Positions 12,116 to 32,561 of a stretch of DNA of 64,000 nucleotides are shown here, one piece after another; positions within the stretch are counted from its first letter, which is position 1, and each line of letters opens with the position of its first letter. Origin of the DNA: Pseudoxanthomonas sp. CF385 (GTDB lineage: Bacteria; Pseudomonadota; Gammaproteobacteria; Xanthomonadales; Xanthomonadaceae). The DNA lies in the NCBI RefSeq assembly GCF_900104255.1, contig NZ_FNKZ01000004.1, positions 62,001-126,000 on the forward strand. Direction: 5' to 3'. The notes below the pieces were generated by a model. That model saw nothing but the letters and a program-made list of their open reading frames with translations, was not told the DNA's origin and ran no database searches. Both the position numbers and the translations under genes were made by a program.

Positions 12116-14817
12116 GGGGTGGCGGTACTCCGGGGAGAGGAAGGCGCGGACAAGGCATCCGCCAGGGTGCTGATATGCAGGGCGTCACGCAGGGCGTCGG
12201 GCGCGGCGCCGGAGGCGATGCGCACGGTGACACGCTCGCCGGGCAGCAGCGTCATCGCGTTGTCGGAGATCTCGGCATCGAGGGTGCCGAAGTCGATCCA
12301 GACCGCGCGCGCCAACGCGTCGGCGGTCAGGTCGAGCGTCGCACCCTGCCGATCATGGCGGAGCCGTGTCTGCACGGGGGACGAGGGCCATGCGACGTGC
12401 TTGGCTTCGGTGAAGTACACCACGTCGCGCGAAGCCGGCTCGCCATCCACGCTCAGGTCGAAGACCGCCACCGTGCGCGCGGGGTCGGCGTCGCCGAGCA
12501 GGTCCGCATCATCGTAGGCGCCCAGGCGCAAGGCCGACAGCGGCGGCACATCGATCGGCTTTCGCTCCTCGCGCAGCACGCGGCCATGCAGGTCCATGAC
12601 CCGCATGCGCCATTCGCCCCGACGCGACGTGGTGCGGTCCGACACCACGCTGACCGTGGTGCGTGCTTCCTTGCGCAATGCCGCGACAGCCACCGGCGCG
12701 AAGAACCGTCGGGCATGGAACTGCAGCGCCTTCCATCGCCCGAACCAGTCGATCCCCGACCAGGATGCGCCCGGCCAGACATCGTTGAGCTGCCAGTACA
12801 GCGAGCCCATCGTGTGGGGTCGGCTGGCGCGATGGTGCCGCGCGGCCAGCCCGATGCCCTCCGCCTGCATCACCTGGCTCAGGTATACGAAATCGCCGAA
12901 ATCCTTCGGCTCGCCGAATTCCATGCGGATGTAGTGCAGCAGGCGTTCGTTGCCCTTGCCCGCCATGAATTTCTGATGCGCCTGGACCGTGGGCGAATCG
13001 ACGCGCTGGTCATCGCGGCCGATCACGCGATCGATCGTGCTGCGCACCGGCCAGGCCTGCAGGCCGTACTCGGACATGAATCGCGGCGTGATGTCGAGAT
13101 AGGCCGACGGCGGCCGCGCCGGATTGCCCCAGACTTCCCAGTAATGCATGTCGCCGCTGGCGGGCGTGTTCGCCACCTCCGCCATGTCGTCGCTGGGCGA
13201 ACTTGGCCAGTACGCGATGCCGCCACCCTCCTCGGCCACGACGCGGCGCAGGTCGCGATCGAACAATTGCACGTATCCGTCCCAGACCCGGGCGGCGAAC
13301 GCGGGGTCGGCTTCCTTCAGTGTCTTGCCGTGGCCCCAGTATTTCCAGGCGATCTCTTCTTCGTTGTTCCCGCACCACACTACGAGGCTGGGATGATTGC
13401 GAAGGCGCCTGATCTGATCGTGCGCCTCGGCGACCACGTTGGCCCGGAAAGCGGGGTTGTAGGCCGGCTGCATGCCACCGCCGAACATGAAGTCCTGCCA
13501 CACCAGCAATCCGAGCTCGTCGGCGATGTCGTAGAACGCGTCGCTTTCGTAATAGCCGCCACCCCAGCTGCGCACCATGTTCATGTTGGCATCCACCGCC
13601 GACTGCAGGACGCGCCGCAGCTGTGCGGACGTTACCCGCGACGGGAACATGTCGAACGGGATGCTGTTCGCGCCCTTGGCGAAGATCGGGATGTCGTTGA
13701 CGACGAAGGCGAACTCGCGCCCGCCCGCGTCGCGTTCGCGCCGCAGTTGGACGCTCCGCAGGCCGGTGCGCACGGCGCGATGATCGACGACGCGCTCCCC
13801 CTGCAGGACTTCGACCTCGAACGTGTACAGCGGTTGCGCGCCGTATCCGGCCGGATACCAGCGCTGCGGCCGTTCGATGCGGACGGCCTGGGGGATGCGG
13901 TTGATGCCCGCGGGCAGCGCGATGCGACGGGTGGCGACGACCGTCCTGCGTCCCCCGGGCGCGACCTGCCACGTACGGATCGCATAGTCGCCCGGCGTAG
14001 CGATATCCACCGTCGGGATCGCCGTGACTTCAGCGACGTCCGCCGTCACGCGGTCCTGGCGTATCTGCAGGTCCTGCACGCGCGCGATGTCCCAGCTGGT
14101 CAGCTGCACGTCTCGCCAGATGCCGGCCGTGACGTAACGCGGCCCCCAGTCCCAGCCGTAGTGGTAGCCGGGCTTGCGCACGAAGTTCGCCGTCAGCACA
14201 TCCTTGGGTTCGTCACCGTAGGGCGAAGGGTAGTTGCCGGCGATGCGATGCGGCATGGCCTGCACCCGCGGCAGCAGGCGCCCGATCGGCGATCGCAACA
14301 CCACGCGCACTTCGTTGGAGCCCTCGCGCAACCGGCCTTGCACCGGTATCCGCCAGGTGCGGAACGCGTTGTCGGCGTCCAACACCTTTTCGCCGTTGAG
14401 GAAGACCTCGGCGAACGTGTCCAGGCCTTCGAACGTCAGCTCGCTGCGCGGCGCACCGCGCATGGCGGCGGTCGCCTCGAAGGTGGTGCGGTATTCCCAG
14501 TCGGAGAGGCCGATCCACTGCAGATCCGCCTCGGGCGCACCGACATAGGGATCGGGAATCAGGTTGTGCGCGAGCAGATCGGTGTGCACGGTGCCTGGCA
14601 TCGATGCGGTACGCCATACCGTGAAATCGACTTCCGGGCTGACGGCGCTCCCCGTCGAAGGCACCTGCCGGAACTGCCAGCCCTGGTCCACGCGATGCCG
14701 GTCCACCGCATGGGCCGCCGCGGCCACCACCAGCAACGCGAGGAAGCAGAGCGATCGCACCCCTTCCAGGCTGGATCGCACGCGACATGCGGGGAACGTC
14801 GGGGGCCTGGTCTGCAT
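12112..14817 (-). CDS. GH2 beta-mannosidase, exported
   Basis: A 901-residue protein with an N-terminal signal segment (core SLCFLALLVVAAAAHA, about 24-39). It has sugar-binding and immunoglobulin-like GH2 domains followed by the TIM barrel. GWDWGPRYVTAGIW is typical of the GH2 beta-mannosidase/exo-glucosaminidase group. The acid/base is Glu486 in WCGNNEEE and the nucleophile is Glu583 in FMSEYGLQ. I chose the ATG at 14817 because upstream in-frame sequence lacks protein character and would displace the signal peptide. Expected role: cleavage of the Man-beta-1,4-GlcNAc bond of the N-glycan core after alpha-mannose removal. Operator site D lies 83 bp upstream. Confidence 0.9.
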   Translation of the reverse strand: MQTRPPTFPACRVRSSLEGVRSLCFLALLVVAAAAHAVDRHRVDQGWQFRQVPSTGSAVSPEVDFTVWRTASMPGTVHTDLLAHNLIPDPYVGAPEADLQWIGLSDWEYRTTFEATAAMRGAPRSELTFEGLDTFAEVFLNGEKVLDADNAFRTWRIPVQGRLREGSNEVRVVLRSPIGRLLPRVQAMPHRIAGNYPSPYGDEPKDVLTANFVRKPGYHYGWDWGPRYVTAGIWRDVQLTSWDIARVQDLQIRQDRVTADVAEVTAIPTVDIATPGDYAIRTWQVAPGGRRTVVATRRIALPAGINRIPQAVRIERPQRWYPAGYGAQPLYTFEVEVLQGERVVDHRAVRTGLRSVQLRRERDAGGREFAFVVNDIPIFAKGANSIPFDMFPSRVTSAQLRRVLQSAVDANMNMVRSWGGGYYESDAFYDIADELGLLVWQDFMFGGGMQPAYNPAFRANVVAEAHDQIRRLRNHPSLVVWCGNNEEEIAWKYWGHGKTLKEADPAFAARVWDGYVQLFDRDLRRVVAEEGGGIAYWPSSPSDDMAEVANTPASGDMHYWEVWGNPARPPSAYLDITPRFMSEYGLQAWPVRSTIDRVIGRDDQRVDSPTVQAHQKFMAGKGNERLLHYIRMEFGEPKDFGDFVYLSQVMQAEGIGLAARHHRASRPHTMGSLYWQLNDVWPGASWSGIDWFGRWKALQFHARRFFAPVAVAALRKEARTTVSVVSDRTTSRRGEWRMRVMDLHGRVLREERKPIDVPPLSALRLGAYDDADLLGDADPARTVAVFDLSVDGEPASRDVVYFTEAKHVAWPSSPVQTRLRHDRQGATLDLTADALARAVWIDFGTLDAEISDNAMTLLPGERVTVRIASGAAPDALRDALHISTLADALSAPSSPRSTATP

Positions 14818-14899
14818 GCGGGTTCCAGTATCGAGGCCAGCAAGGGTTGGGCGATGCCGCGTCCCTGCGCACCATCCGGCAATGCCGGCAGGCAGGGTT

Positions 14900-14913
14900 T
14901 TGGATCGATCCAA
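14900..14913. promoter_or_regulatory. LacI-type operator, site D, perfect palindrome
   Basis: TTGGATCGATCCAA, a perfect 14-bp palindrome in the divergent region between the GH2 and GH92 genes. It is used here as the reference motif for the other five sites. Its centre lies 159 bp from site E. Confidence 0.65.
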
Positions 14914-15058
14914 TTCACGCGTAGATTTACCATGCCCTCCGCCATCTTGCATGTTGCTCCGCAGCAGCCGATCGGCGCCTCGAGGGCACGATGATCGAGC
15001 GCACGCTCCGTCCGTACCCGATGCTCCGCGTTCCTTGCCTGTGCTAGCTTTTCCCGAA

Positions 15059-15072
15059 TTCGACCGATCCAA
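15059..15072. promoter_or_regulatory. LacI-type operator, site E
   Basis: TTCGACCGATCCAA, two mismatches to site D. It abuts the ribosome site AAGGTG (15074-15079) of the GH92 gene starting at 15084, so a bound repressor would act as a roadblock or cover the leader. Confidence 0.5.
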
Positions 15073-15083
15073 AAGGTGCGGCA

Positions 15084-17432
15084 ATGAAGCAACCGGGTGC
15101 GTTGGCGGCAGTGCTGATGGGCGTCGTGGGGGCATGCATCGCCGTGTCGGGTGGCGCACTCGCGGCGCCGGCCTCGCCGGGCGACGCGGCCTACCAGGCG
15201 GTGGATCCTTTCATCGGCACCGGAGGTGAAGGCCACACGTACCCCGGCGCGACCGTGCCGTACGGGATGGTGCAACTCTCGCCGGACACCCGCATCCAAC
15301 CACGGAAAGATGGCTACGGCTGGGCCGCGGGATACCGCTACGACGACACGACCATCGCCGGCTTCTCGCATACGCACTTCTCCGGCACGGGACACTCGGA
15401 CCTGGGCGACCTGTTGCTGATGCCCACGACCGGCGAGCTGAAGCTGGAGCGCGGCGACCCCGACAAGCCCGGCAGCGGATACACCTCGCGGTTCCGTCAT
15501 GCCACCGAGACCGCGCAGCCCGGCTACTACGCGGTCACGCTGGACGATCACCAGGTGCGTGCCGAACTCACCGCCAGCCTGCGCGTGGGCATGCATCGCT
15601 ACGCTTTTCCCAAGGGCCAGCCTGCGCACGTCGTGCTGGATCTGCGCACCAGCATGTACGACTACCCCGGCAAGGTGTCTTGGTCGCGCGTGCGCGTGAG
15701 GCCCGACGGCACGGTGACGGGTTTCCGCGAAACACGCGGCTGGGCGCCGGGTCGGCAGCTCTACTTCGCGGTTCGCTTCTCCCAGCCGCTGACCGGCCAT
15801 CAACTGCACAACACCGAGCAGGACATCCCCTACAAGGGATTCCCGCCGCCGGGAGAAAAAGATCCCCGGCAGCGCGTGCAGATCGAAGGGCGCCAGCTGG
15901 TGGCCGCCTTCGACGTCGCGCCAACCGCCGGCCGGCCGTTGCTCGTGAAGGTGGCCATCTCGCCCGTCAGCGAGGAGGGCGCCATCGCAAACCTCGACGC
16001 GGAAGCGCCTGGCTGGGACTTCGACGGCATGCGCACTGCCGCCAGGCGGCAATGGAGCGATGCGCTAGGCGCCGTCGAGGCTCGCGGCACCCCTGCCCAG
16101 CGCACCAGTTTCTACACCGCGCTGTACCACACGCTGCTGGGTCCCACCCTCTTCATGGACAGCGACGGACGCTATCGCGGCCCCGACAATGCGGTGCACC
16201 AGGCCAAGGGATGGACGAACTATTCGACCTTCTCCCTGTGGGACACCTATCGTGCGCTGCACCCGTTGACCACCCTGGTCCAACCGGAGCAACGCACCAA
16301 CGACTTCGTCAACTCGCTGCTCGCTTCACGCAGGGAAAGCGCATACGGCGTACTGCCCGTGTGGTCGTTCCACGGGCTGGAGACGTGGTGCATGATCGGC
16401 TACCACGCCGTTCCCGTGATCGCGGACGCCTACATGAAGGGCATCCGCGGCTACGATGCCGATGAAGCCCTTCAAGCCATGGTGGCCAGCGCCAACTACG
16501 GTCCCTACGACGGCATCGCGGCGTACCGCGAGCTTGGCTACGTGCCGATCGACGAGGAAGGCGAAGCCGCTAGCAAGACCCTCGAGTACGCCTACGACGA
16601 CTGGACCATCGCACGGATGGCGCAGGCGATGGGCAAGAAGGAGGTGGCGGAGGAATTCACCCGCCGCGCAGCCAACTGGAAGCACGCCTTCGACCCCGCC
16701 ACGGGCTTCATGCGCGCGCGCAAGCGGGATGGCGCATTCCGCGAGCCGTTCGATCCGGCCGCCAGTGGCTACGGCACCGACTACACGGAAGGCAACGCGT
16801 GGCAGTACTCCTGGTACGTGCCGCAGGATGTCGCCGGCCTGGCGGACGCGCATGGCGGTAGCGACAAGCTGCTGGCACGACTCGATGCCGTGTTCGATGC
16901 CAAGGTCGATCCGGCGGTGTTCGAGCACATGGAGGACATCACCGGCCTGATCGGCTGGTACGCGCACGGCAACGAACCCAGCCACCATGTCGCCTATCTG
17001 TACGCGTACGCGGGCCAGCCCTGGCGTACGCAGGCGCGGCTGAAGCAGATCATGGACACCCAGTACGCGCCGCGACCGGACGGCCTGGCGGGCAACGACG
17101 ACCTGGGCCAGATGTCGGCGTGGTACGTATTCACGACCCTTGGCTTCTATCCGGTCGCGCCGGGCAGCAACCAGTACGTGCTGGGCCGTCCCTTCCTGCC
17201 GCGCGCCACGCTGCATCTCCCCAATGGCCAGCGTTTCACCGTCATCGCCGACGGCCTGGACGATGCGCATGCCTATGTGGGCGGCGTCACGCTCAATGGC
17301 AAGCCGCTGGAGCGCACGTATCTGGAGCACGCGGAGATTCTTGCCGGCGGTGAACTGCGCTTCACGATGCAGGCGACGCCCGACACGTCGCGCGCCGGCC
17401 AGTGGGTACTGCCGTATTCGATGTCGCACTAA
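15084..17432 (+). CDS. GH92 alpha-mannosidase, canonical alpha-1,2-like
   Basis: A 782-residue exported enzyme (signal peptide about 1-27, ending GALAAP). It carries the textbook GH92 blocks: VDPFIGTGGEGHTYPGATVP, EGNAWQYSW (catalytic acid Glu569), HGNEPSHHVAYLY and GNDDLGQMSAWY (from residue 670). The intact HGNEPSHH block is that of exo-alpha-1,2-mannosidases, so trimming of terminal alpha-1,2-mannose of high-mannose glycans is the best guess. It is the only plus-strand gene of the island, driven from the divergent region holding operators D and E. It ends 15 bp from the convergent cutC gene, with no room for a terminator between them. Confidence 0.93.
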   Translation: MKQPGALAAVLMGVVGACIAVSGGALAAPASPGDAAYQAVDPFIGTGGEGHTYPGATVPYGMVQLSPDTRIQPRKDGYGWAAGYRYDDTTIAGFSHTHFSGTGHSDLGDLLLMPTTGELKLERGDPDKPGSGYTSRFRHATETAQPGYYAVTLDDHQVRAELTASLRVGMHRYAFPKGQPAHVVLDLRTSMYDYPGKVSWSRVRVRPDGTVTGFRETRGWAPGRQLYFAVRFSQPLTGHQLHNTEQDIPYKGFPPPGEKDPRQRVQIEGRQLVAAFDVAPTAGRPLLVKVAISPVSEEGAIANLDAEAPGWDFDGMRTAARRQWSDALGAVEARGTPAQRTSFYTALYHTLLGPTLFMDSDGRYRGPDNAVHQAKGWTNYSTFSLWDTYRALHPLTTLVQPEQRTNDFVNSLLASRRESAYGVLPVWSFHGLETWCMIGYHAVPVIADAYMKGIRGYDADEALQAMVASANYGPYDGIAAYRELGYVPIDEEGEAASKTLEYAYDDWTIARMAQAMGKKEVAEEFTRRAANWKHAFDPATGFMRARKRDGAFREPFDPAASGYGTDYTEGNAWQYSWYVPQDVAGLADAHGGSDKLLARLDAVFDAKVDPAVFEHMEDITGLIGWYAHGNEPSHHVAYLYAYAGQPWRTQARLKQIMDTQYAPRPDGLAGNDDLGQMSAWYVFTTLGFYPVAPGSNQYVLGRPFLPRATLHLPNGQRFTVIADGLDDAHAYVGGVTLNGKPLERTYLEHAEILAGGELRFTMQATPDTSRAGQWVLPYSMSH

Positions 17433-17447
17433 GGCGATGCGGCACCG

Positions 17448-18197
17448 CTACGTCGACGCGCCGGCATCCAGCGCCGCACGCAGCGCACGGACGCGCTCCG
17501 GATCGGTCTCCGTCCAGTCGGGAGAAAGCCCCTGTAGCGGAGTGCCGCGGAAGCGCATCGCGGATGCGCGCGGCGCCTTGGCGGAGGCATGGAACTCGCG
17601 GGCACCGGTAGTCACCGCGAGCGCCGCGACATTGCCTCCCGTGATGCCCGCGCCCGGCATCACCACGATCCTCCCTGCGGCCTGCTGCACGCGTAACGCG
17701 ATGGATTCGGCACCCTCCACGGCGGTGCTGCACCCACCCGAGGTCAACACGCGCGCAAAGCCCGCTTCGATCACCTGCTCCAGCGCCGTTTCAGGATCCC
17801 GTACAGCATCGAATGCCCGGTGGAACGTCACCGGCAGCGTCCCCGCGGCGGAAACGAACTGGCGGCACAACGACAGGTCGACGTCGCCATCGGCATCGAG
17901 CGCGCCGATGACGATGCCATCGCAGCCCAACCGGACGCAGCACTCGATGTCGCGGAGCATCACCTCCGCCTCCCGAACGCTGTAGAGGAAATCCCCCGCG
18001 CGCGGGCGCACGAGTACGAACAAGGGAATGTGCAGGCGCTCACGGGCGAGCGCCACGGCCCCGTAAGAAGGCGTGGTGCCGCTCGCCTCGAGCGTGCCGC
18101 ACAGCTCCACACGGTCCGCCCCGGCCTGCTGCGCGGTCAGCGCGGAGGAAAGCGACCCCGCCGCTATCTCGAGAACGCGCGGCACGGGAACACTCAT
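17448..18197 (-). CDS. cutC: CutC-family TIM-barrel protein
   Basis: A 249-residue CutC family protein (PF03932), with VLEIAAGSLSSALTAQQAGA at the N-terminus, RVELCG, TFHRAFD and LTSGGC blocks. The family was named for copper homeostasis in E. coli, but that role is disputed. Here it is the last gene of an operon with glycosylasparaginase and a glucokinase-family gene (ATGA overlap with the former) under operator F. It has no signal peptide. Context argues for a step in amino-sugar or N-glycan breakdown rather than copper handling, but the reaction cannot be named from sequence. Confidence 0.85.
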   Translation of the reverse strand: MSVPVPRVLEIAAGSLSSALTAQQAGADRVELCGTLEASGTTPSYGAVALARERLHIPLFVLVRPRAGDFLYSVREAEVMLRDIECCVRLGCDGIVIGALDADGDVDLSLCRQFVSAAGTLPVTFHRAFDAVRDPETALEQVIEAGFARVLTSGGCSTAVEGAESIALRVQQAAGRIVVMPGAGITGGNVAALAVTTGAREFHASAKAPRASAMRFRGTPLQGLSPDWTETDPERVRALRAALDAGAST

Positions 18198-19207
18198 GCG
18201 CCCCCGCCATAGATCGAACCCGAGGCGTGCAGAACGTCCTGCTTCTTGGCATCGCAGACGGCATATTCGAAACCCGCGTGCAGGGCGAAGGCGCCCACTT
18301 CACCGTGACGGTTCAAGGCCAGGAAACATACCTGCAGGGACTTGCTCGCTTCCGGTCGCTTGCGCACCACGCGTTCGATGGCTTCGCGGCACGCGTCCGC
18401 GGGCGCACGCCCCTGCCGCATCAGCTCCACCACCAGGAAGCTCGCCGCGTTGCGGATCATCTCCTCGCCCACGCCCGACGCGGTCGCGGCGCCCACCTCA
18501 TTGTCCACGTACAGTCCCGCACCGACGATAGGGCTGTCGCCTACGCGTCCATGCATCTTCCACGCCATGCCGCTGGTCGTGCAGGCGCCTGCCAGACGGC
18601 CATTCCGGTCGATGGCGAGCATGCCCAGGGTGTCGTGATTGTCCTTGTTGCCGGGCCGGACGCTGCGTTCGGCATTGATCTGCGGTTGGTACTCGGCGCG
18701 CGCACGCCATTCGCGCCACGCCTGCTCGGCCTCGGGTGTCAGCAGACGGCGCTTCCTGAAGCCCTGGGCCATCGCGAACTGCTGTGCGCCCTCGCCGACC
18801 AGCATCACGTGCGGTGTCTTCTCCATCACGAGCCGCGCCACGCTGATCGGATGATCGATGTCCTCGATCGCCGCCACCGCACCGCAGCGGCCATCGCCGT
18901 CCATGATGCTCGCGTCCAGCGTGAGCACGCCGTCGCGGTCGGGGTTGCCGCAGCGGCCGACCGTGGGATTGCACAGTTCGCTTTCCGCCCATCGCGCACC
19001 CTGTTCGACGGCGTCCAGCGCGCTGGCACCCGTCGACAGGTGTTTCCATGCGGCTTGATTGGCGCCGACGCCGAAATCCCAGGTGGACACGACGCGTGCA
19101 CCGGCGTCAGCGCGCGGGTCAGAGGGGTCGGATGCCCAGCCGCGGGGAATCGCCAGCGCGCCCGCGGACAGGGCGGCCTGCGCGAGGAATCGTCTTCTGT
19201 CGTTCAT
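18194..19207 (-). CDS. N4-(beta-N-acetylglucosaminyl)-L-asparaginase (glycosylasparaginase)
   Basis: A 337-residue Ntn-hydrolase precursor. It self-cleaves before the nucleophile Thr193 in NHDTLGMLAID, giving alpha and beta chains, and hydrolyses the GlcNAc-Asn bond of glycopeptides. GMAWKMHGRVGDSPIVGAG is the typical beta-chain substrate region. The N-terminus DRRRFLAQAALSAGALA looks like a twin-arginine signal, so it is probably folded before export to the periplasm. It is translationally coupled (ATGA overlaps) to the kinase gene upstream and cutC downstream. This gene is the strongest evidence that the island targets asparagine-linked glycans and not free mannan. Confidence 0.92.
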   Translation of the reverse strand: MNDRRRFLAQAALSAGALAIPRGWASDPSDPRADAGARVVSTWDFGVGANQAAWKHLSTGASALDAVEQGARWAESELCNPTVGRCGNPDRDGVLTLDASIMDGDGRCGAVAAIEDIDHPISVARLVMEKTPHVMLVGEGAQQFAMAQGFRKRRLLTPEAEQAWREWRARAEYQPQINAERSVRPGNKDNHDTLGMLAIDRNGRLAGACTTSGMAWKMHGRVGDSPIVGAGLYVDNEVGAATASGVGEEMIRNAASFLVVELMRQGRAPADACREAIERVVRKRPEASKSLQVCFLALNRHGEVGAFALHAGFEYAVCDAKKQDVLHASGSIYGGGA

Positions 19208-20214
19208 GCGTCGTCCTTCACGGCTGTCTTGCTACGGAGACCACGATGCGCGTGCCAGTAGCTCGCGGCGCCGACCAGGCCAAGCTGGCCGTGCTCGATG
19301 CGCCAGACCGGCGGCGGCACGCGGCCTGCGATGAACGTTCCCGCATACCGTTGGCGGAAATGTCCCGCATGCAGGAACGGCGCGATGTGGGTGGTCACGC
19401 CTCCCGCCAGGTAGACGTCGCGCGCGCCGAGCGTCAACGCCAGATTCGCCACCTGGCTGCCGAGCCATCCGCAGAAGATCTCCAGCGTTTCCTGCGCGAT
19501 CGCATCGCCCGCTCGCGCGGCCGACACCACGTGTTCCGGCCGTTCGTAGCACGGCGACTCTCCCGCCAGGCCGCACAGGGCTTCGGCGAGATTCATCAGT
19601 CCCGGACCCGAGAGCACGCGCTCGCTGTCCACATGCTGCCAACGCTTCGAGAGGATGCTCAGCACATCACACTCCTTCTCGTTGTTCGCCGCCAGCGCCG
19701 CGTGGCCGGCTTCGCTCAGCAGTACGGCGGCACCTGTCTGATCCAGGCACAGGGCCGCACCCAGGCCGGTGCCCGGCCCCAGCACCAGCGCCGGCACCTG
19801 CAGGCCTTGATCCTGCCGTGGCGGCGCGAGCGATACCAGCGCATGCCGCGGCACGCCGGGAATGGCGTGCGCGACGGCGCCGAAATCGTTGATGAGGGCC
19901 AGCGATCCCAGCCCGGCCGCCTCGGTAGTCAGTGCCACCGACACGTCCCACGGCAGGTTGGCGTTCACCAGACGATCCTGGTCGAGATATCCCGCGATCG
20001 CCACCACCGCATCGCGGAGCCGCAGGCCGGCATGCTGCACGGCGACTGCGTCGGCGTAATGAAGAAGGATGTCGGCCAGCGATACGAAATCAGCGCAACG
20101 GTAGGAGACCACCTGCTGCACGTCCCTGCCGTCGCGGGTCCAGCCCAGGCGCGCGTTCGTGCCGCCGACGTCAGCCACCAGGCAGGCTTGGGGGGTGCTT
20201 CGGAGGGGATCCAT
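19204..20214 (-). CDS. Glucokinase-family sugar kinase
   Basis: A 336-residue Glk-type kinase: phosphate-binding ADVGGTNARLGW at the N-terminus, the LINDFGAVAHAI block, the catalytic region GPGTGLGAAL, and the adenosine motif LAGGVTTHI. I start it at ATG 20212-20214, with GGAAG eight bases upstream; an upstream TTG lacks a ribosome site. It is the first gene of the operon with glycosylasparaginase and cutC, behind operator F. The ROK-type zinc motif CxCGxxGCxE is absent. Glucose is the family's usual substrate; GlcNAc or mannose would suit this cluster (inference). Confidence 0.85.
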   Translation of the reverse strand: MDPLRSTPQACLVADVGGTNARLGWTRDGRDVQQVVSYRCADFVSLADILLHYADAVAVQHAGLRLRDAVVAIAGYLDQDRLVNANLPWDVSVALTTEAAGLGSLALINDFGAVAHAIPGVPRHALVSLAPPRQDQGLQVPALVLGPGTGLGAALCLDQTGAAVLLSEAGHAALAANNEKECDVLSILSKRWQHVDSERVLSGPGLMNLAEALCGLAGESPCYERPEHVVSAARAGDAIAQETLEIFCGWLGSQVANLALTLGARDVYLAGGVTTHIAPFLHAGHFRQRYAGTFIAGRVPPPVWRIEHGQLGLVGAASYWHAHRGLRSKTAVKDDA

Positions 20215-20265
20215 CGAGGACGCTTCCAGCAAGGAGCCGTTGAATCGACACCGGAATCATCTCAT

Positions 20266-20350: not shown

Positions 20351-22177
20351 TCACTCCACCGTCACCGATTTCGCCAGATTGCGCGGCTTGTCCACGTCGG
20401 TGCCGCGCGCCAGCGCGGTGTGGTACGCCAGCAGCTGCACGGGAATGGTGTGCACGATGGGGCTGAGCACGCCGACATGGCGCGGGGTGCGGATGACGTG
20501 CACGCCTTCCGATTCGCTGAAATGGCTGTCCTGGTCGGTGAACACGAACAGCTCGCCGCCGCGCGCGCGCACTTCCTGCATGTTGGACTTCACCTTCTCC
20601 AGCAGCACGTCGTTGGGCGCGATCACCACCACCGGCATGTCGGCATCCACCAGCGCCAAGGGCCCATGCTTCAGCTCGCCGGCCGGATAGGCCTCGGCGT
20701 GGATGTAGGAGATTTCCTTCAGCTTGAGCGCGCCTTCCAGCGCGATCGGGTAGTGCAGGCCGCGGCCGAGGAACAGCGCATCGGACTTCGGTGCGAAGCG
20801 TTCGGCCCACGCGGCGATCTGCGGCTCCAGGTTCAGCGCGTGCTGCACGCTGCCCGGCAGGTGGCGCAACTGCTCCAGGTAATCGGCTTCCTGCGCCGGC
20901 GTGACCTTGCCGCGCAACTTGCCCAGCACGACGGTCAACTGGAACAGGGCGGCCAGCTGGGTGGTGAACGCCTTCGTCGATGCCACGCCGATCTCGGCGC
21001 CGGCGCGCGTGTAGCAGACCAGCTCGCTAGCGCGCGGGATGGCGCTCTCGGGCACGTTGCAGATCGACAGCGTGTGCTGGTGGCCCAACGACTTGGCGTA
21101 CTTCAGTGCCTCCATCGTGTCCAGGGTTTCGCCGGACTGGGAGATGGTGACGATGAGGTGCTTGGGATTGGCGTACGCGGCGCGATAGCGGTATTCGCTG
21201 GCGATCTCGACGTTGCACGGCACGCCGGCGATGGCTTCGAGCCAGTAACGCGCGGTCATGCCGGCGTAGTAGCTGGTGCCGCAGGCAAGGATCTGCACGC
21301 CTTCGATGTCCTTCAATGCGGCTTCCGCATTGGCGCCGAACAGCGTGGGCTGGAAGCCGCCGTCGATGACCGCTTCGATGGTGTCGGCGATCGCACGCGG
21401 CTGCTCGTGGATCTCCTTCTGCATGAAGTGGCGGTACGGGCCCAGCTCCAGCGAGGCCAGCGACACGTCGGACACATGCACGTCGCGCTCGATCGGCTGG
21501 TCCTTGTCGTCGAACACATGCACGGCCTGGCGGGTGACTTCGGCGGTATCGCCTTCTTCCAGGAAGATCACGCGGCGCGTGGCCTGGATGATCGCGGACA
21601 CGTCCGAGGCGATGAAGTTCTCGCCTTCGCCCAGGCCGATCAGCAGCGGGCAGCCCATGCGGGCGCAGACCATGCGCTCGGGTTCCTTGCGGCTCACCAC
21701 GGCCAGCGCGTAAGCGCCGGTCAGTTCCTTCACCGTGCGCTGCAGCGCGGCCAACAGGTCGTCGCCGCCCTTGAGGTGGTAGTGCATCAGGTGGGCGATG
21801 ACTTCGGTGTCGGTCTGCGACTCGAACACGTAGCCCAGCGCGCGCAGGCGCTCGCGCTGTTCTTCGTGGTTCTCGATGATGCCGTTGTGCACCAGCGCCA
21901 CGCCGTGGCTGATGTGCGGATGCGCGTTGGCTTCGGTGACGCCGCCGTGGGTGGCCCAGCGGGTATGACCGATGCCCAGGCTCGCGTTGAAGCCCTCGGC
22001 GGCGGCGGCGCCTTCCATTTCGGCGACGCGGCCCGTGCGGCGCACGCGACGGACATCCTGCTGGTCGACCACCGCGATGCCCGCGGAATCGTAGCCCCGG
22101 TATTCCAGCCGCTTCAGTCCTTCGATGAGTACCGGCACCACGTCGCGATCGGCGATCGCGCCCACAATTCCGCACAT
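20351..22177 (-). CDS. glmS: Glutamine-fructose-6-phosphate aminotransferase
   Basis: A 608-residue GlmS that makes glucosamine-6-phosphate from fructose-6-phosphate and glutamine for peptidoglycan and LPS. The N-terminal glutaminase nucleophile is Cys2 (MCGIVGAI), with [11 protein letters not shown] and the HNGIIEN block. Two SIS domains follow, with CGTSYYAG and SQSGETLDT. The C-terminus ends KSVTVE. The length is usual for the family. Its 5' side is divergent from the ABC export operon, and the half-site array upstream could in principle affect it too. No glmS ribozyme is expected or seen. Confidence 0.97.
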
Positions 22178-22209
22178 AGGCCTGCGCCTTCCTTCTGGAT
22201 AAGTCGTGT

Positions 22210-22290
22210 GGACATTCTACGTGTCCGGCACTGGACAGGCCCTGTCCGGCGAGTGTCCGCGGACACCCGGACAGCCTGCTGCGCCGGACA
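22210..22290. promoter_or_regulatory. Array of TGTCC/GGACA half-sites upstream of a sigma-54 promoter
   Basis: Eight half-sites in 81 bp: GGACA at 22210, 22233, 22261, 22269 and 22286, and TGTCC at 22222, 22243 and 22254. They form nested palindromes, notably the perfect GTGTCCGCGGACAC (22253-22266) and TGTCC-N6-GGACA (22222-22237). They lie about 30-110 bp upstream of the -24 element, where enhancer-binding proteins normally bind. The sigma-54 activator encoded at 28275 is the natural partner. Confidence 0.65.
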
Positions 22291-22317
22291 ACCCCCTTGT
22301 GAATCAACCGCTTGCGT

Positions 22318-22334
22318 TTGGCACGCATCCTGCT
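22318..22334 (+). promoter_or_regulatory. Sigma-54 (-24/-12) promoter of the ABC export operon
   Basis: TTGGCACGCATCCTGCT: the invariant GG (22320-22321) and GC (22332-22333) are exactly ten bases apart, and TGGCACG matches the -24 consensus fully. The -12 block reads CTGC where TTGC is ideal. The predicted start, near 22345, leaves a leader of about 18 bases before the ATG at 22363. Confidence 0.7.
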
Positions 22335-22362
22335 GTTACCAGCCGGTCATTCCAAAGAACGC

Positions 22363-23640
22363 ATGCCGCCGATGATTCGGGACACCTCCGCGCAAGACCG
22401 AGTGCTCAGCTCCACCCAGGCCCGCCCCGCCTGGCGCCGTTGGGTATGGCCCGCCGCCGGTGGCGCCCTGCTGCTGGCCGGCATCGTCTTCGCCGCCCGC
22501 GGCTGGTTGTCCGGCACCACGTCGGTGGACGGCGCCCGCCTCCGGTTCGCCGAAGTGACCCGCGGCGACCTGGTCCGCGACATCGCCGCCGATGGGCGCG
22601 TCATCGCCGCCAACAGCCCCACCTTGTATGCCATCGCAGGTGGCGTGGTCACGCTGAAGGTCGTGGCCGGCGACAAGGTCGCCAAGGGCCAGCCGCTGGC
22701 CGAGATCGACAGCCCCGAGCTGCGCAGCAAGCTGGCGCAGGAGCAGACCACCCTGGCCGGCCTGGAAGCCGAGGCCAGCCGCGCCAACCTGGATGCCAGC
22801 GTCACCCGCGCCAATGCGCAGAAGGCGCTGGACCAGGCCGAAATCGAACGCCAGGCCGCCGAGCGCACCCTGCAGCGTTACCAGCGCGGCTACGACGGCG
22901 GCGCGGTGCCGCAGGTCGACGTGATGGAAGCCCAGGACAACCTGCGCAAGGCCGAGATCGCGTTGTCCCACGCGCGCAAGGACGCGGGCCTGCAGGGCCA
23001 GGGCGCCGGCCTGGACGCCCGCAACAAGCAGCTGCTGGCCGAGCGCCAGCGCGCGGTGGTGGCCGAAGTGCAGCGCCAGGTCGATGCACTGACCCTGCGC
23101 GCGCCGTTCGACGGCCAGGTCGGCCAGGTGCAGGCCGTGCAGCGCTCCAACGTGGCGATAAACGCACCGGTGCTGAGTGTGGTGGACCTGTCGGTGTTCG
23201 AAGTCGAGATCAAGGTGCCCGAGAGCTTCGCGCGCGATCTCGCGATCGGCATGCCGGCCACCCTGACCAGCGCCGGTCAGCCGTACGCCGGCGAGATCTC
23301 CGCGGTGTCGCCGGAAGTGGTGAACGGCGAAGTCGTCACCCGCCTGCGCTTCTCCGACAAGCAACCGCCCGGCCTGCGCCAGAACCAGCGCCTGTCCGCC
23401 CGCATCCTGATGGATACGCGCCGCAACGTGCTGATGGTGGAGCGCGGCCCGTTCGTCGAGCAGGGCGGCGGTCGGTACGCCTATGTCATGGATGGCAGCT
23501 CCGCGGTACGCCGTCCGGTGCAGTTGGGCGTCAGCAGCCTGAGCAACGTCGAAGTGCTCAGCGGCCTGCAGCCCGGCGACAAGGTCGTCGTCTCCGGCAG
23601 CGACCTGTTCGGCGATGCCGAGCGCGTCTCGGTCAACTGA
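22363..23640 (+). CDS. Periplasmic adaptor (HlyD/MacA-like membrane-fusion protein)
   Basis: A 425-residue adaptor. There is one N-terminal membrane anchor (about 25-43, WPAAGGALLLAGIVFAARGW), then a biotinyl-lipoyl-like domain (GGVVTLKVVAGDKVAKGQPL), a long alpha-helical hairpin rich in Ala/Gln/Arg (about 110-225), and beta-barrel and membrane-proximal domains. It should bridge the permeases below to an outer-membrane channel that is not encoded here. I start at ATG 22363, just downstream of the sigma-54 promoter. First gene of an operon of five ABC/adaptor and regulatory genes. Confidence 0.88.
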   Translation: MPPMIRDTSAQDRVLSSTQARPAWRRWVWPAAGGALLLAGIVFAARGWLSGTTSVDGARLRFAEVTRGDLVRDIAADGRVIAANSPTLYAIAGGVVTLKVVAGDKVAKGQPLAEIDSPELRSKLAQEQTTLAGLEAEASRANLDASVTRANAQKALDQAEIERQAAERTLQRYQRGYDGGAVPQVDVMEAQDNLRKAEIALSHARKDAGLQGQGAGLDARNKQLLAERQRAVVAEVQRQVDALTLRAPFDGQVGQVQAVQRSNVAINAPVLSVVDLSVFEVEIKVPESFARDLAIGMPATLTSAGQPYAGEISAVSPEVVNGEVVTRLRFSDKQPPGLRQNQRLSARILMDTRRNVLMVERGPFVEQGGGRYAYVMDGSSAVRRPVQLGVSSLSNVEVLSGLQPGDKVVVSGSDLFGDAERVSVN

Positions 23641-23711
23641 TTCCCCACCTCCCCCACGCGTCCTCCCCCACGTCTCCCACTCCGCACCAGAACCCGAAGA
23701 AGGAACCCGCC

Positions 23712-24434
23712 ATGCTTGAGATGCGCCAAGTCGCCAAGGTCTACCGCACCGAACAGGTGGAAACGCATGCGCTGCGTTCCCTCGATCTGCATGTCCGCGA
23801 GGGCGAGTTCGTCGCGGTCACCGGTCCGTCGGGTTCCGGCAAGACCACGTTCCTCAACATCGCCGGCCTGTTGGAGACCTTCACCGGCGGGCAGTTCCTG
23901 CTCGACGGACAGGACGTCAGCCACTTGGGCGACGACGCCCGCTCGCGCCTGCGCAACCAGAAGATCGGCTTCATCTTCCAGGGCTTCAACCTGATCCCCG
24001 ACCTCAACCTGTTCGACAACGTCGACGTGCCGCTGCGCTATCGCGGCATGCCCGCGTCCGAGCGCAAGCAGCGCATCGAGGACGCGCTGGCCCGCGTGGG
24101 CCTGGGCTCGCGCATGAAGCACTATCCGGCCGAACTGTCGGGCGGCCAGCAGCAGCGCACGGCGATCGCGCGCGCCCTGGCCGGCAGCCCGCGCCTGCTG
24201 CTGGCGGACGAACCCACCGGCAACCTGGACTCGCAGATGGCCCGCGGCGTGATGGAACTGCTGGAGGAGATCAACCGTCAGGGCACGACCATCATCATGG
24301 TCACGCACGACCCGGAGCTCGCCGCGCGCGCGCAGCGCAACGTGCACATCGTGGACGGCATGGCCACCGACCTGTCGGTGGAGCCCGCGCTGATCCGCGC
24401 GGCGCACGCCGCCGAAACCAGCGCCTCCGCCTGA
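23712..24434 (+). CDS. ABC transporter ATP-binding subunit (MacB/LolD type)
   Basis: A 240-residue nucleotide-binding protein: Walker [11 protein letters not shown]-loop [13 protein letters not shown], signature [15 protein letters not shown], Walker [14 protein letters not shown], and the H-loop MVTHDPE. It belongs to the MacB/LolD/FtsE-like group that works with FtsX-type permeases in mechanotransmission rather than classical transport. It is 71 bp downstream of the adaptor and 11 bp before the first permease. It is the only ATPase in the operon, so it must serve all the permease subunits. Confidence 0.94.
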
Positions 24435-24445
24435 GGAGACCCGAC

Positions 24446-25756
24446 ATGTTCGGCTACTACTTCACCCTCGCGCTGCGCAGCTTCAAGCGCAACAAGGCGC
24501 TGACCTTCCTGATGGTGCTGGCCATCGCGCTCGGCATCGGCGCCAGCATGACCACGCTGACCGTGTTCTACGTGCTGTCGGGCGATCCGATCCCGCAGAA
24601 GAGCGACAAGCTGTTCTACCCGCGCATCGACCCGCGTTCGGCGAACGGGTTCGCACCCGGCGACGAGCCGGAGGACCAGTTCACCCGCCACGACGCCGAG
24701 CGCATGCTGCGCGACAAGAAGGGCGACCGCCAGGCCTTCATGACCGGCGGCGCCTCGTCGATCGAGACGGAGGACGGCCGGATCGAACCGTTCCGCATCG
24801 ATGCGCGCTACACCACCGCCGACTTCTTCCCGATGTTCGAGGTGCCGTTCCGCTACGGCAACGGCTGGTCGGCCGCCGACGACGAATCGCGCGCGCGCGT
24901 GGCCGTCATCTCCAAGGCGCTGAACGAGAAACTGTTCGGCGGCATCAACAGCGTGGGCCGCGACATCAAGGCCTCCGGCGCGACGTTCCGCGTGATCGGC
25001 GTGCTGGACGAATGGCGTCCGGCGCCGAAGTTCTACGACATGACCCAGGACCGCTTCACCGAGGTGGAGCAGCTGTTCGTCCCGTTCTGGACGTCGCGCA
25101 CGCTGAAGATGGGCACCCAGGGCAACATGAACTGCTGGGGCGATTCCAGCGCGGAAGAGGAAGGCTCGCAGGGACCGAACGCGCCGTGCTCGTGGCTGCA
25201 GTACTGGGTCGAGCTGGGCACGCCGGAGAAGGTCGAGGCCTACAAGCAGTACCTGAAGAACTACTCCGACCAGCAGCGCGCGGCCGGTCGTTTCGAGCGC
25301 CCCGCCAACGTGGACCTGCACAACGTGATGCAGTGGCTGGACAAGCAGGGCGCGGTGCCCGGCGACGTCCGCCTGCAGGTGTGGCTGGCCTTCGGCTTCC
25401 TCGCGGTGTGCCTGCTCAACACGGTGGGCCTGCTGCTGGCGAAGTTCCTGGGGCGCGCCTCGCAGATCGGCGTGCGACGTGCGCTCGGCGCCACCCGTCG
25501 CGCCATCTTCGCGCAGTGCCTGGTCGAAGCGGGCACCGTGGGGCTGGTCGGTGGCGTACTCGGTCTCGCCCTCGCCTGGCTGGGCCTGTGGGCCGTGCGT
25601 CACCAGCCCGCCGGCTACGCCGATCTCGCCCACATGGACGTGAAGATGTTGCTGGCCACGTTTGCCCTGGCGATCGTCGCCAGCCTGCTCGCCGGGATGC
25701 TGCCTGCCTGGCGCGCGATGCAGGTGACGCCCGCCATCCAGCTCAAGAGCCAGTGA
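24446..25756 (+). CDS. MacB/FtsX-type ABC permease 1
   Basis: A 436-residue permease. A first transmembrane helix (about 18-45, ALTFLMVLAIALGIGASM) is followed by a large periplasmic MacB-PCD domain and three C-terminal helices, with the cytoplasmic coupling motif IGVRRALGATRRAIF. The periplasmic domain contains two cysteines close together (GNMNCWGD and NAPCSW) that could form a disulfide. GAGGAGA precedes the ATG. It ends ILKS-like with AIQLKSQ, the typical MacB tail. Confidence 0.9.
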   Translation: MFGYYFTLALRSFKRNKALTFLMVLAIALGIGASMTTLTVFYVLSGDPIPQKSDKLFYPRIDPRSANGFAPGDEPEDQFTRHDAERMLRDKKGDRQAFMTGGASSIETEDGRIEPFRIDARYTTADFFPMFEVPFRYGNGWSAADDESRARVAVISKALNEKLFGGINSVGRDIKASGATFRVIGVLDEWRPAPKFYDMTQDRFTEVEQLFVPFWTSRTLKMGTQGNMNCWGDSSAEEEGSQGPNAPCSWLQYWVELGTPEKVEAYKQYLKNYSDQQRAAGRFERPANVDLHNVMQWLDKQGAVPGDVRLQVWLAFGFLAVCLLNTVGLLLAKFLGRASQIGVRRALGATRRAIFAQCLVEAGTVGLVGGVLGLALAWLGLWAVRHQPAGYADLAHMDVKMLLATFALAIVASLLAGMLPAWRAMQVTPAIQLKSQ

Positions 25757-25779
25757 CCCATCCATTCAAGAGGCACGTC

Positions 25780-27003
25780 ATGGACATCCGCCCCATCCTC
25801 TCCACCCTGGCCCGCCACAAGACGGCTGCCGCACTGATCGTGCTGGAAGTGGCGCTGTCGTGCGCCATCATCTGCAACGCCGTGTTCCTGATCACCCAGC
25901 GGCTCGAGCGCATCGACCGGCCCACCGGCATGACGAACGAGGAGATCGTGCGCATCAGCATGGGCAACCTCGGCGAGAACCCCGAAGCCGACGCCCTGGT
26001 GAAGCAGGATGTCGCCAGCCTGCGCGCACTGCCGGGGGTCAAGTCCGCCGGCAGCATCAACCATGTGCCGTTCGACAATTCGTCCTGGAACAGTTCCATC
26101 CAGCTCGCACCCGAGCAGGAACGCCCCAGCGCGCAGGCGAACGTCTATCTGGGCGACGCCGTGATCGAAACCCTCGGGTTGAAGCTGGCCGAAGGCCGGG
26201 ACTTCACCCCGGAGGAATACGTCAACTGGACCGACATCAACAAGCAGAACGCCAAGTACGTGATGCCGGCGGTGATCCTGAGCCGCGAGCTGGCGAACAA
26301 GCTGTTCCCGGGCGAGAGTGCGGTCGGCAAGAACATCTATGCATGGAACACCGACAACGTCCCGCACCGCGTGGTCGGCGTGGTCGACCGTCTGATCCGC
26401 ACCAACGACAACGGCGGCCCCGCCGAAGCCGGCTTCACGATGATCCTGCCGGCGAGGGACCTCACCATGGGCACCTTCGTCCTGCGGACCACGCCCGAAC
26501 GGCGCGCGGAAGTCCTGAAGGCCGCGCTCGCGACGCTGGAGAAGAACAGCGCCCGCCGGCTGGTGCTGCGCGATGGCACGTTCAGCGACATCAAGAGCGA
26601 CTATTACCGCGGTGATCGCGCGATGGCCTGGCTGCTGATCACCGTGATCATCTCGCTGCTGGTCGTCACTGCGCTCGGCATCGTCGGCCTGGCCAGCTTC
26701 TGGGTGCAGCAACGCACCAAGCAGATCGGCATCCGCCGTGCGCTGGGCGCCACCAAGGGCCAGATCCTGCGCTACTTCCAGACGGAGAACTTCCTGCTGG
26801 CCACGCTGGGCATCGTGATCGGCATGATCCTGGCCTACGGCATCAACCAGCTGCTGATGGGCAAGTACGAACTGCCGCGCCTGCCGCTGCTCTACCTGCC
26901 GGTCGGTGCCGTGCTGCTGTGGCTGCTCGGCCAGGTGGCGGTGTACGGTCCGGCGCGCAAGGCCGCCTCGGTGCCGCCCGCGGTCGCCACCCGCACCGCC
27001 TGA
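25780..27003 (+). CDS. MacB/FtsX-type ABC permease 2
   Basis: A 407-residue permease with the same plan as its upstream neighbour but divergent in sequence: helix 1 at about 16-38, a periplasmic domain, then three helices with IGIRRALGATKGQIL. The ATG at 25780 follows AAGAGG. Together with permease 1 it probably forms a heterodimer over a homodimer of the ATPase. Confidence 0.9.
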   Translation: MDIRPILSTLARHKTAAALIVLEVALSCAIICNAVFLITQRLERIDRPTGMTNEEIVRISMGNLGENPEADALVKQDVASLRALPGVKSAGSINHVPFDNSSWNSSIQLAPEQERPSAQANVYLGDAVIETLGLKLAEGRDFTPEEYVNWTDINKQNAKYVMPAVILSRELANKLFPGESAVGKNIYAWNTDNVPHRVVGVVDRLIRTNDNGGPAEAGFTMILPARDLTMGTFVLRTTPERRAEVLKAALATLEKNSARRLVLRDGTFSDIKSDYYRGDRAMAWLLITVIISLLVVTALGIVGLASFWVQQRTKQIGIRRALGATKGQILRYFQTENFLLATLGIVIGMILAYGINQLLMGKYELPRLPLLYLPVGAVLLWLLGQVAVYGPARKAASVPPAVATRTA

Positions 27004-27059
27004 TTCCTCCGCTTCCTGCCGCGCACGCCCACCGGCGTGCGCGGTCCGACGGGGTTCCC

Positions 27060-28271
27060 ATGTCTCCTCCCTTCCTGCTGCTGGGACGCCACCATGCGGG
27101 CACCTGGTTGATCGCGCTGCAACTGGCGATCGGCGTGGTGCTGTGCCTGCAGGCCTGGCAGGCGGTCACCGGTCTGCACGCCGCGCGCGCGATGCCCGAC
27201 GGCATCGATGACGCGGGACTGCTGCTGGTGCCCTGGCTGCAGATGACACCGGGAAGCGATCCGGGCGTCGCCGATGTCGTCCGCCGCCTGCGCAACGTGC
27301 CGGGCGTGCAGTCGGCCACGGCCGCCAATCAGGCGCCCTACGGAAACAGCGCCTGGAGCATGCATGTGTGGATGTCGGCGCGACCCGCGGAGCGGCACGT
27401 CGTGTCGGTATTCCTCGGTGACGAGCGGTTCGCCTGGACGCTCGGACTGGCGACGGTGCGGGGTCGGGAGTTCCTTCCCGACGAGTTCCGCGACTATGCC
27501 GGCGACCAGACCGATCTGCATGCCGCGCTCGGGCCGGCCATCATCTCGTCGGCCCTGGCCCGACGGCTGTATGGCGATGCGGACCCGCTCGGCCGCACGG
27601 TGTGGACGGCACCGGGCGCTCGGCTGCACGTGGTCGGTGTGATCGATCGCGTACCTCCGCCGGCCAGCGCGCGCGACACGGGAGACTTGGCCATGCTGCT
27701 GCCGGTGCGGATGGTGCGCGCCGGCGATGCGCAGTTCCTCGTCCGGCACACGGGCGATGCGGATGGCGTGGCGTCGCGGATCCGCACCGCGCTGGCCGCC
27801 GCCTATCCGTCCATGGCGGTCGCCGATCCGGTCGGCATGACTTCGCTGCGCGAGGCCTCGCTGCATGCGCCGCGCATGCGCGCACGCTGGTCTGTAGGCG
27901 CGTGCGTCGCGTGGTGGTTCTCCACCCTCGGCCTGCTGATGCTCGGCGGCGAGCGTTGGGTGCAGGCGCACGCGCAGGAGTTCAGCCTGCGCCGTGCCGC
28001 CGGTGCGACCGGTCGCCAGCTCGCACGCCGCCTGCGCTGCGAATACCTGGGACTGGCATGCATGGCGGTGATGGCGGGCCTGACCTGCGGTGGCTGGTTG
28101 CTGCCGCGCGTCGCCCCGGACGGGCTGGTCAGCACGCCGTCGATGGGCGCGATGCTCGCGGCCGCCGCATGGGCGACGCTGGCGGTGCAGTTCGCCGCGA
28201 CATGGCCCGCACGCCTGGCCCGCCGCATCCCGCCGCACCTCGTCAGCCGCAGCCCTTCGGTTAGGCTATAG
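27060..28271 (+). CDS. Third, divergent FtsX-like permease subunit
   Basis: A 403-residue protein sharing the layout of permease 2: an N-terminal helix (about 17-35), a MacB-PCD-like region including SATAANQAPYGNSAWS (compare INHVPFDNSSWNS in permease 2), and three C-terminal helices. The coupling loop has drifted to FSLRRAAGATGRQLARR, which keeps RRAxGAT. It starts 57 bp after permease 2 and ends three bases before the response regulator, so it is part of the operon. It may be a diverged duplicate acting as a sensor or alternative partner. Confidence 0.8.
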   Translation: MSPPFLLLGRHHAGTWLIALQLAIGVVLCLQAWQAVTGLHAARAMPDGIDDAGLLLVPWLQMTPGSDPGVADVVRRLRNVPGVQSATAANQAPYGNSAWSMHVWMSARPAERHVVSVFLGDERFAWTLGLATVRGREFLPDEFRDYAGDQTDLHAALGPAIISSALARRLYGDADPLGRTVWTAPGARLHVVGVIDRVPPPASARDTGDLAMLLPVRMVRAGDAQFLVRHTGDADGVASRIRTALAAAYPSMAVADPVGMTSLREASLHAPRMRARWSVGACVAWWFSTLGLLMLGGERWVQAHAQEFSLRRAAGATGRQLARRLRCEYLGLACMAVMAGLTCGGWLLPRVAPDGLVSTPSMGAMLAAAAWATLAVQFAATWPARLARRIPPHLVSRSPSVRL

Positions 28272-28274
28272 CGC

Positions 28275-29608
<1,334 letters not shown>

Positions 29609-29612
<4 letters not shown>

Positions 29613-30937
29613 TCCGCCGCTCGCTCGCCGGCCGCGTATTGTCCTGGCTGCTGCCGTTGCTGGCGGTGGCGCTGGTGCTGCCGGTCGCGCTGTCGCACTG
29701 GCTGCAGGACGACCTGCTGGCGGTGCTGCTGTCCGCGCTGGTCGTGCTGCCGCTGGCGGGCTGGGCGATCCATCGTGGCCTGCGCAGCACGCGCTCGCTG
29801 TTCCGTGCGCTGGCCGGCAGCGTCAACAGCTATCGCGACGGCGAGTACAACTTCGGCATCCATTGGCAGGGCAGCGACGAACTTGCCGAACTCGTCCGTT
29901 CGCACGGCGCGCTGGGCGACGTCCTGCGCGAGCAGCGGCAGACCCTGGTGCAGCGTGAACTGCTGCTGGACACGATGGTGCAGAACACCCCGGTGGCCAT
30001 GCTGCTGGTGGCGCCCGGCGGGGATGGCGTGCGCCGGGTGGTGTTCGCCAACGTCGCCGCGCGCAAGCTGCTGCACAGCGGCTGGAAGCTGGAGGGACAG
30101 GACTACGACTCGTTGCTGGCCGCCTCGCCGGTGGAGATGCGCGAAGCGCTCGCGCGCAGCGGCGACAGCCTGTTCGCCATCGGCAGCGAGGAGGACGACG
30201 AGGAAGAGCAGGTCTACCATCTCGCACGCCGCAACTTCCGCCTCAACGGCCGCCCGCACGAGTTGCTGCTGCTGCGGCTGCTGACGAACGAACTGCGTCG
30301 GCAGGAAGTGATGACGTGGAAGAAGGTCATCCGCGTGATCAGTCACGAACTCAACAACTCGCTGGCACCGGTGGCGTCGCTGGCGCACTCCGGCGCGGAA
30401 CTGGTCCGCCGCGGCAAGCACGAGCGGCTGGAAGAAGTGTTCGGCACCATCGAGGACCGCGCCCGCCACCTGGAGGGCTTCATCCGCGGATACGCGCGCT
30501 TCGCCAAGCTTCCGCAGCCGCAGCTGCATACGGTGCACTGGCGGGCCTTCCTCGAAGGCCTGCAGCGGCAGATCGGGTTCGAACTGGCGATGCAGGAGGC
30601 CGACATCGATGGCCGCATCGACCTGGCGCAGGTCGAGCAGGCGCTGCTGAACCTGCTGAAGAACGCGCACGAATCCGGCACGACCGCCGACGGCGTGTCG
30701 GTGCGTGTCACCCGCCTGCCCGGCTGGGTCCGTATCGAGGTGATGGACCGCGGCACGGGCATGAACGATGCGGTGCTGCAGAACGCGTTGGTGCCGTTCT
30801 ATTCGACCAAGCGCAACGGCACCGGCCTGGGCCTGGCGCTGACCCGCGAGATCGTCGAAGCGCACGGCGGACGGCTGTCGCTGCACAACCGCGACGGTGG
30901 CGGGCTGTGCGTGGCCATCCAGTTGCCCGAAAACTGA
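29609..30937 (+). CDS. NtrY-like sensor histidine kinase
   Basis: A 442-residue kinase. Two N-terminal transmembrane helices (about 9-28 and 35-53) have almost no periplasmic loop between them, so sensing is probably within the membrane or through the transporter. HAMP- and PAS-like linkers follow. Phospho-acceptor His246 is in VISHELNNSLAPV, typical of NtrY-like kinases, followed by the ATPase domain with LLKNAHES, MDRGTGM and GTGLGLAL. It forms a pair with the response regulator through an ATGA overlap. Confidence 0.93.
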
Positions 30938-31004
30938 TCTGTCCGATGGCGGCGCGACGGCATCACCGCGCTGTACCCGAAGCCGAACCCGCATGGCACC
31001 GACT

Positions 31005-31034
31005 CCCCCTCTCCTACCGGGAGAGGGCAAGGGG
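31005..31034. repeat. CCCTCTCC/GGAGAGGG dispersed hairpin repeat
   Basis: An imperfect inverted repeat (stem 31007-31014 with 31020-31027, loop TACCG) in the convergent gap between the kinase and glmU. It resembles short palindromic repeats common in Xanthomonadaceae intergenic regions and could terminate the operon message. Confidence 0.5.
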
Positions 31035-31092
31035 TGAGGGCTGGCAGCCGCGACCCGCATTCAACGGGCTTTCGTTCAGATACGCGACCCGT

Positions 31093-31114
31093 GGCGGGCT
31101 TAAGCCCGCCCTAC
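31093..31114 (-). repeat. GTAG-type REP at the glmU 3' end
   Basis: On the minus strand it reads GTAG followed by GGCGGGCT and AGCCCGCC arms. It abuts the glmU stop at 31116. It is the same element type as the pairs at 36009 and 38393. Confidence 0.65.
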
Positions 31115-31115
31115 G

Positions 31116-32483: not shown

Positions 32484-32561
32484 GTGGTTTCCCATTACGA
32501 TGATGGCGGCCTTCGCCCCTGGTGCGATGGTATCAACTCAGTCCGCCACAAGACCTCGCCC

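Follow-up and report, generated by a model that had tools for sequence, protein, structure and literature searches.

Two questions are raised by the exporter operon that is divergent from glmS in Pseudoxanthomonas sp. CF385: what controls its promoter, and whether the regulator encoded in the operon is part of that control. They were addressed in a 64,000-nucleotide stretch of contig NZ_FNKZ01000004.1 (hereafter the window; all coordinates are window positions). In the region 20351-32495, the operon lies in antiparallel orientation between glmS (minus strand, 20351..22177) and glmU, with atpC further along; the region left of glmS (12112-20232) presumably carries glycan-degradation-like genes, judging from translations (glycoside hydrolases, an asparaginase-like amidase and a glucokinase-like protein). 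The seven operon genes, all on the plus strand, lie no more than 71 bp apart or overlap slightly, and no internal terminator was found on this strand between 22150 and 31150. Profile matches identified a periplasmic adaptor of the HlyD/RND_mfp type (22363..23640), an ABC transporter ATP-binding protein resembling MacB, LolD and DarD (23712..24434), and three MacB/FtsX-type permeases (24446..25756, 25762..27003 and 27060..28271), the start codon of the third being inferred and a longer frame from 26919 having been used in the searches. Among the matches listed, no exporter gene reached the cut-off of a specific exporter model, and the adaptor passed only the general RND_mfp subfamily model. A darobactin-type exporter was rejected, as the scores lay below the cut-offs for DarD (263.1 vs 375), DarC (48.7 vs 450) and DarB (27 vs 700).

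The last two genes encode an NtrC-type response regulator (28275..29612) and a histidine kinase with a HATPase_c domain match (29609..30937). The regulator has the domain matches of a two-component enhancer-binding protein, namely a receiver, a Sigma54_activat domain with a GAFTGA-type loop, here GAYTGA, and a Fis-type helix-turn-helix (HTH_8); the first-pass annotation had stated GAYTGA for an activator encoded together with its kinase. It is 97% identical to its counterpart in Pseudoxanthomonas sp. Root630 and 96% identical to that of P. mexicana DSM 17121. On the comparisons described below, the promoter of this adaptor-ABC-permease (three copies)-regulator-kinase operon is very probably sigma-54-dependent and positively autoregulated, with putative assistance from IHF.

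The presumed enhancer for the regulator, located by motif positions and shuffles, is an array at 22210..22290 of eight TGTCC/GGACA half-sites, starting at 22210(-), 22222(+), 22233(-), 22243(+), 22254(+), 22261(-), 22269(-) and 22286(-). The count of eight within 81 bp, noted at first pass, is borne out by shuffling: 2000 dinucleotide shuffles of the 140 bp that precede the -24 box gave a mean of 0.46 and a maximum of 4, and any other 81-bp span in the 64-kb window contains at most three half-sites. The perfect palindrome GTGTCCGCGGACAC that had been described in the array is present at 22253-22266, and it occurs as a single exact copy genome-wide, with one further place matching at one mismatch. 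Within the array, a core of the form TGTCC-N6-TGTCC-N2-GGACA-N3-GGACA (22243..22273, plus strand) recurs as a same-order four-half-site core in 63 of 98 orthologous regions; in the window, the final half-site of the core begins 50 bp ahead of the -24 box. No Rfam RNA element was matched in 21900-22700 at E up to 1.

Downstream of the array, TGGCACGCATCCTGCT (22319..22334, plus strand) has the composition of a sigma-54 promoter, with a TGGCAC-type -24 box and a TGC-type -12 box. The GG-N10-GC spacing is exact, as previously reported (GG at 22320-22321, GC at 22332-22333), and a transcription start near 22345 therefore fits. The adaptor more likely starts at ATG 22372, because many ortholog alignments begin there, and this start would give a leader of approximately 27 nt. 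By itself the -24/-12 pattern has no genome-wide significance, giving eight matches against eight for the reversed control, so the case for the promoter rests on conservation. Between the array and the promoter, adjoining the -24 box, a block at 22302..22314 (plus strand) matches 9/9 informative positions of the IHF consensus WATCAANNNNTTR; this placement between enhancer and promoter is that expected of an IHF-assisted promoter. The block had been overlooked at first pass, as had the near-constant distance from the core to the promoter and the degeneracy of the half-site.

Conservation was assessed from orthologous upstream regions. Of 112 loci fetched, 10 gave no adaptor: L002 was off-target, L093 begins at the regulator, and in the other eight (L049, L052, L054, L058, L087, L109, L110 and L112) the adaptor presumably lies beyond the stretch fetched. 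In these eight, regulator and permeases are several kb further apart than in the window, pointing to additional operon genes, perhaps further copies of a permease. From the remaining 102 loci, a duplicate (L001) and three loci whose adaptor is cut by the locus end (L090, L091 and L103) were dropped, leaving 98 regions. As these include duplicates between genome sets and many close species, the statistics use a set of 50 genomes of the family, in most cases one for each genus, with G034 left out where n = 49. An adaptor match was found in 53 of 60 family genomes, of which G004 (stop inside the gene), G014 and G047 (contig ends) were left out of the upstream analysis, and of the seven genomes without an adaptor match, G041 was left out for having no glmS match. 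The glmS locus of G004 (L129) and a second match in G059 (L130) were also left out.

Across the Xanthomonadaceae, 49 of the 50 orthologous regions carry a -24/-12 site scoring at least 19, compared with 95 of 5000 shuffles (1.9%) and 2 of 50 antisense strands. In 44/49 genomes, a GGAC(A/G) half-site starts 48-51 bp ahead of the -24 box (1.1% of shuffles), and at least 7/9 informative positions of the IHF-like block are matched in 41/49 (about 1% of shuffles). At the usual position of this block, two genomes, G045 (L159) and G011 (L163), have a GGAC(A/G) half-site instead, as if it replaced the block. The number of strict TGTCC/GGACA half-sites ranges from 0 to 9 across the 98 regions; a single region has none, CGTCC being used instead in parts of the family, and the half-site is better written as (C/T)GTCC. 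In this form, 3 to 10 half-sites are present per genome (49 genomes). The spacing between half-sites is also variable. Measured between their starts, facing half-sites are most commonly 7, 8 or 9 bp apart, and additional peaks lie at 15-19 and 27-29 bp; same-strand half-sites peak at 8-13 and 20-21 bp, both distributions having been compiled without a shuffle control. A single dimer spacing was considered and rejected, as several distances are common, none is exclusive and no one geometry explains all of them.

That the half-sites are a purposeless by-product of G+C-rich sequence is scarcely credible. The G+C content is indeed high and the strict count varies between 0 and 9, as such an origin would allow, but the mean number of (C/T)GTCC is 5.65 per genome against 0.98 in shuffles, with a minimum of 3 among 49 genomes, and the half-sites occupy a near-fixed position, so that the by-product explanation is already contradicted by conservation.

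As the array lies between divergent genes, whether it belongs to the operon or to glmS was addressed by comparing locations. The operon is found between glmS and glmU in 66 of the 67 named loci with both genes in reach. In five genomes without the operon at this site (G023, G059, G049, G005 and G057), glmU and glmS are direct neighbours, from which it follows that the operon probably entered the site. In 10 of 11 genomes where the operon is absent or elsewhere, only 0-3 (C/T)GTCC are present in the 220 bp before glmS, with the glmS promoter motif mostly kept. In G005, G057, G022, G033 and G040, five genomes whose operon is not next to glmS, the half-sites are kept before the operon. The array thus goes with the operon and not with glmS. 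The exception among the 11 genomes, G050 (L117), gave no adaptor match but has five (C/T)GTCC upstream of glmS, a small cluster that may be left over from a lost operon.

The array could in addition act as a dual operator, at which the bound regulator also blocks the promoter of divergent glmS, or tunes it, and thereby couples export to amino-sugar synthesis. This proposal is compatible with sigma-54 autoregulation, and we consider it unlikely. A consensus scan of 22150-31150 detected no sigma-70-type promoter at glmS, and the likely -10 element (TAGAAT, 22214..22219, minus strand), located between two half-sites, rests on a loose -10-like motif conserved in 39 of 43 glmS-adjacent genomes. In the window, the left end of the array overlaps this likely promoter, one half-site overlapping the -10 element and another lying 3 bp away, and in 30 of the 39 genomes with the motif, one or more half-sites fall between 12 bp downstream and 40 bp upstream of it, a count made without a shuffle control. 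However, overlap is expected anyway from the short intergenic region. The distance from the glmS ATG to the -24 box varies from 121 to 255 bp among 43 genomes, whereas the half-sites, and the core in particular, remain in place relative to the -24 box; the scarcity of (C/T)GTCC before glmS in genomes lacking the adjacent operon likewise argues against a role at glmS.

Sigma-54-dependent autoregulation of the operon was further supported by G034, whose region, alone among the 50, has no -24/-12 site. Of 296 family genomes, 295 gave a match to the sigma-54 DNA-binding domain; the sole exception is G034, in which the sigma-54 activator-interacting domain was also not found. The G034 regulator is 58-59% identical and has GAFAGV in place of GAYTGA, a motif present in 80/80 named orthologs and in 13 of 15 further orthologs, the other deviation being GAYTSA in G045, where both sigma-54 and the -24/-12 site are kept. 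G034 retains the operon, the kinase, the SRQALYRRM segment of the DNA-binding helix of the regulator, and upstream half-sites arranged as TGTCC-N4-GGACA and TGTCC-N2-GGACA. The -24/-12 site, GAYTGA and sigma-54 are thus jointly missing while the half-sites persist. These losses, though confined to a single lineage, point the same way, namely that the half-sites would serve the DNA-binding domain and GAYTGA would serve the -24/-12 promoter. Read as a natural knockout, G034 is the best evidence for the proposed circuit.

G034 also bears on the identity of the protein that binds the array. The genome of strain CF385 encodes eight Sigma54_activat matches, four of them strong, so that a regulator other than the operon's own has candidates. 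Half-site clusters nevertheless precede the operon in all 50 family genomes, including G034, where no Sigma54_activat match apart from the operon regulator is strong (the other four are weak, with E values of 7e-7 or above); binding of the array by another regulator is therefore very improbable.

As the operon, kinase, helix and half-sites of G034 have outlasted sigma-54, the -24/-12 site and GAYTGA, the operator may now serve another activation mechanism. TTGACA and TATAAA are present upstream of its operon. Whether the regulator has switched its partner from sigma-54 to the housekeeping polymerase, using the same kind of operator, appears evenly balanced. If so, G034 would provide a natural snapshot of a sigma-54 activator turning into an ordinary regulator; it makes possible a natural test of how a GAFTGA activator can persist once its polymerase partner has been lost.

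Relatives of the operon outside the family were searched in the class, where 13 of 377 genomes gave adaptor matches, four in the own family and eight outside it once G631 was set aside. G631 was excluded as a bin with 7% contamination placed in another family; its adaptor (L208) is 96% identical to that of the window and preceded by the same promoter, and is probably contamination. Half-site clusters were found upstream of the operon relatives in six of the eight genomes. The -24/-12 score was 22 in G588, G644, G654 and G448 and 20.5 in G591, and in G647 the half-site cluster is present and a -24/-12 site was not found. Five of the six genomes with a cluster have a regulator with GAYTGA downstream, and in G644 it is absent from the stretch fetched. 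The two genomes without a cluster, G412 and G436, are also without the regulator in the stretch fetched.

The array and promoter thus accompany the operon throughout the family and in several more distant relatives, which supports the positive autoregulatory circuit proposed at first pass. Against it stand the variable number and spacing of half-sites, the missing -24/-12 site in G647, GAYTSA in G045, and the restriction of the joint loss to a single lineage. We infer the following course of events from the sites and domains. The kinase would phosphorylate the NtrC-type regulator, which would then bind the (C/T)GTCC/GGAC(A/G) half-sites, whose core stops about 46 bp short of the -24 box, while extra half-sites further upstream probably help the AAA+ ring to assemble. 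IHF bound beside the promoter would bend the DNA and assist looping, and GAYTGA would contact the sigma-54 RNA polymerase and lead to promoter opening, so that exporter and regulators would rise together.

Further targets of the regulator were sought and rejected, as the strict three-half-site core showed no excess outside the operon in 60 genomes (6 matches vs 4 for the reversed control), nor did the looser pattern TGTCC-TGTCC-GGACA with gaps of 0-20 in the own genome (2 other places vs 1). The exporter, which is common in the family, has a probable, apparently single-target sigma-54 circuit, and the operator motif helps to find this exporter circuit in other Gammaproteobacteria.

Tandem TGTC-type half-sites also precede the sigma-54 promoter of pilA in Pseudomonas, where PilR acts, although no paper showing this site was found in the openly licensed literature. 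A search of the same literature, limited to openly licensed papers, yielded no recognised treatment of the regulator, promoter or motif of the exporter operon, and the only match to TGTCCGCGGACA was a paper on human CD164. Excerpts of PMC7280030 and PMC3162934 contain nothing on the operon. One of the NtrC-family regulators named in a 2021 review may be an ortholog of the window regulator; the excerpted text gives no targets for them (PMC8657755). In excerpts of a sigma-54 study in Xylella, a site is predicted before the HlyD gene XF2093 (PMC3224663).

Among known systems, the NorR enhancer at norVW of E. coli resembles the array in having several sites upstream of a sigma-54 promoter; these are inverted repeats of the form GT-(N7)-AC, and three of them are essential and serve as a scaffold for the oligomer (excerpts of PMC2941729 and PMC1274295). 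By analogy with these three NorR sites, the extra half-sites of the array probably contribute to assembly. The window regulator is not NorR, as it scores 277.5 bits against a cut-off of 476, carries a receiver in place of the GAF control domain, and faces a palindrome of the form GT-(N6)-AC; a facing spacing of 8 bp corresponds to GT-(N7)-AC, whereas that in the window is 7 bp, and a NorR-spaced pair occurs in 19 of the 50 genomes. GlrR/QseF, which acts at glmY in enterobacteria, is likewise a two-component sigma-54 regulator with TGTC half-sites, and in Proteus mirabilis three QseF and two IHF putative sites precede glmY-qseEGF, an operon that includes qseF (excerpt of PMC8745638). Its target is a small RNA, whereas that of the window regulator is an exporter, and identity with GlrR/QseF was rejected on score (270.8 vs a cut-off of 763 bits) and on the absence of TGTC-N10-GACA spacing from the array. 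Given strict counts of 0 to 9 among orthologs and these precedents, the first-pass description of so dense an array as unusual was too strong, while its sigma-54 promoter, enhancer array and positive autoregulation are supported by comparison. The cooperative or multi-state binding suggested at first pass stands as a proposal. Multi-site enhancers before sigma-54 promoters were already known, and the exporter circuit is a well-supported addition to them.
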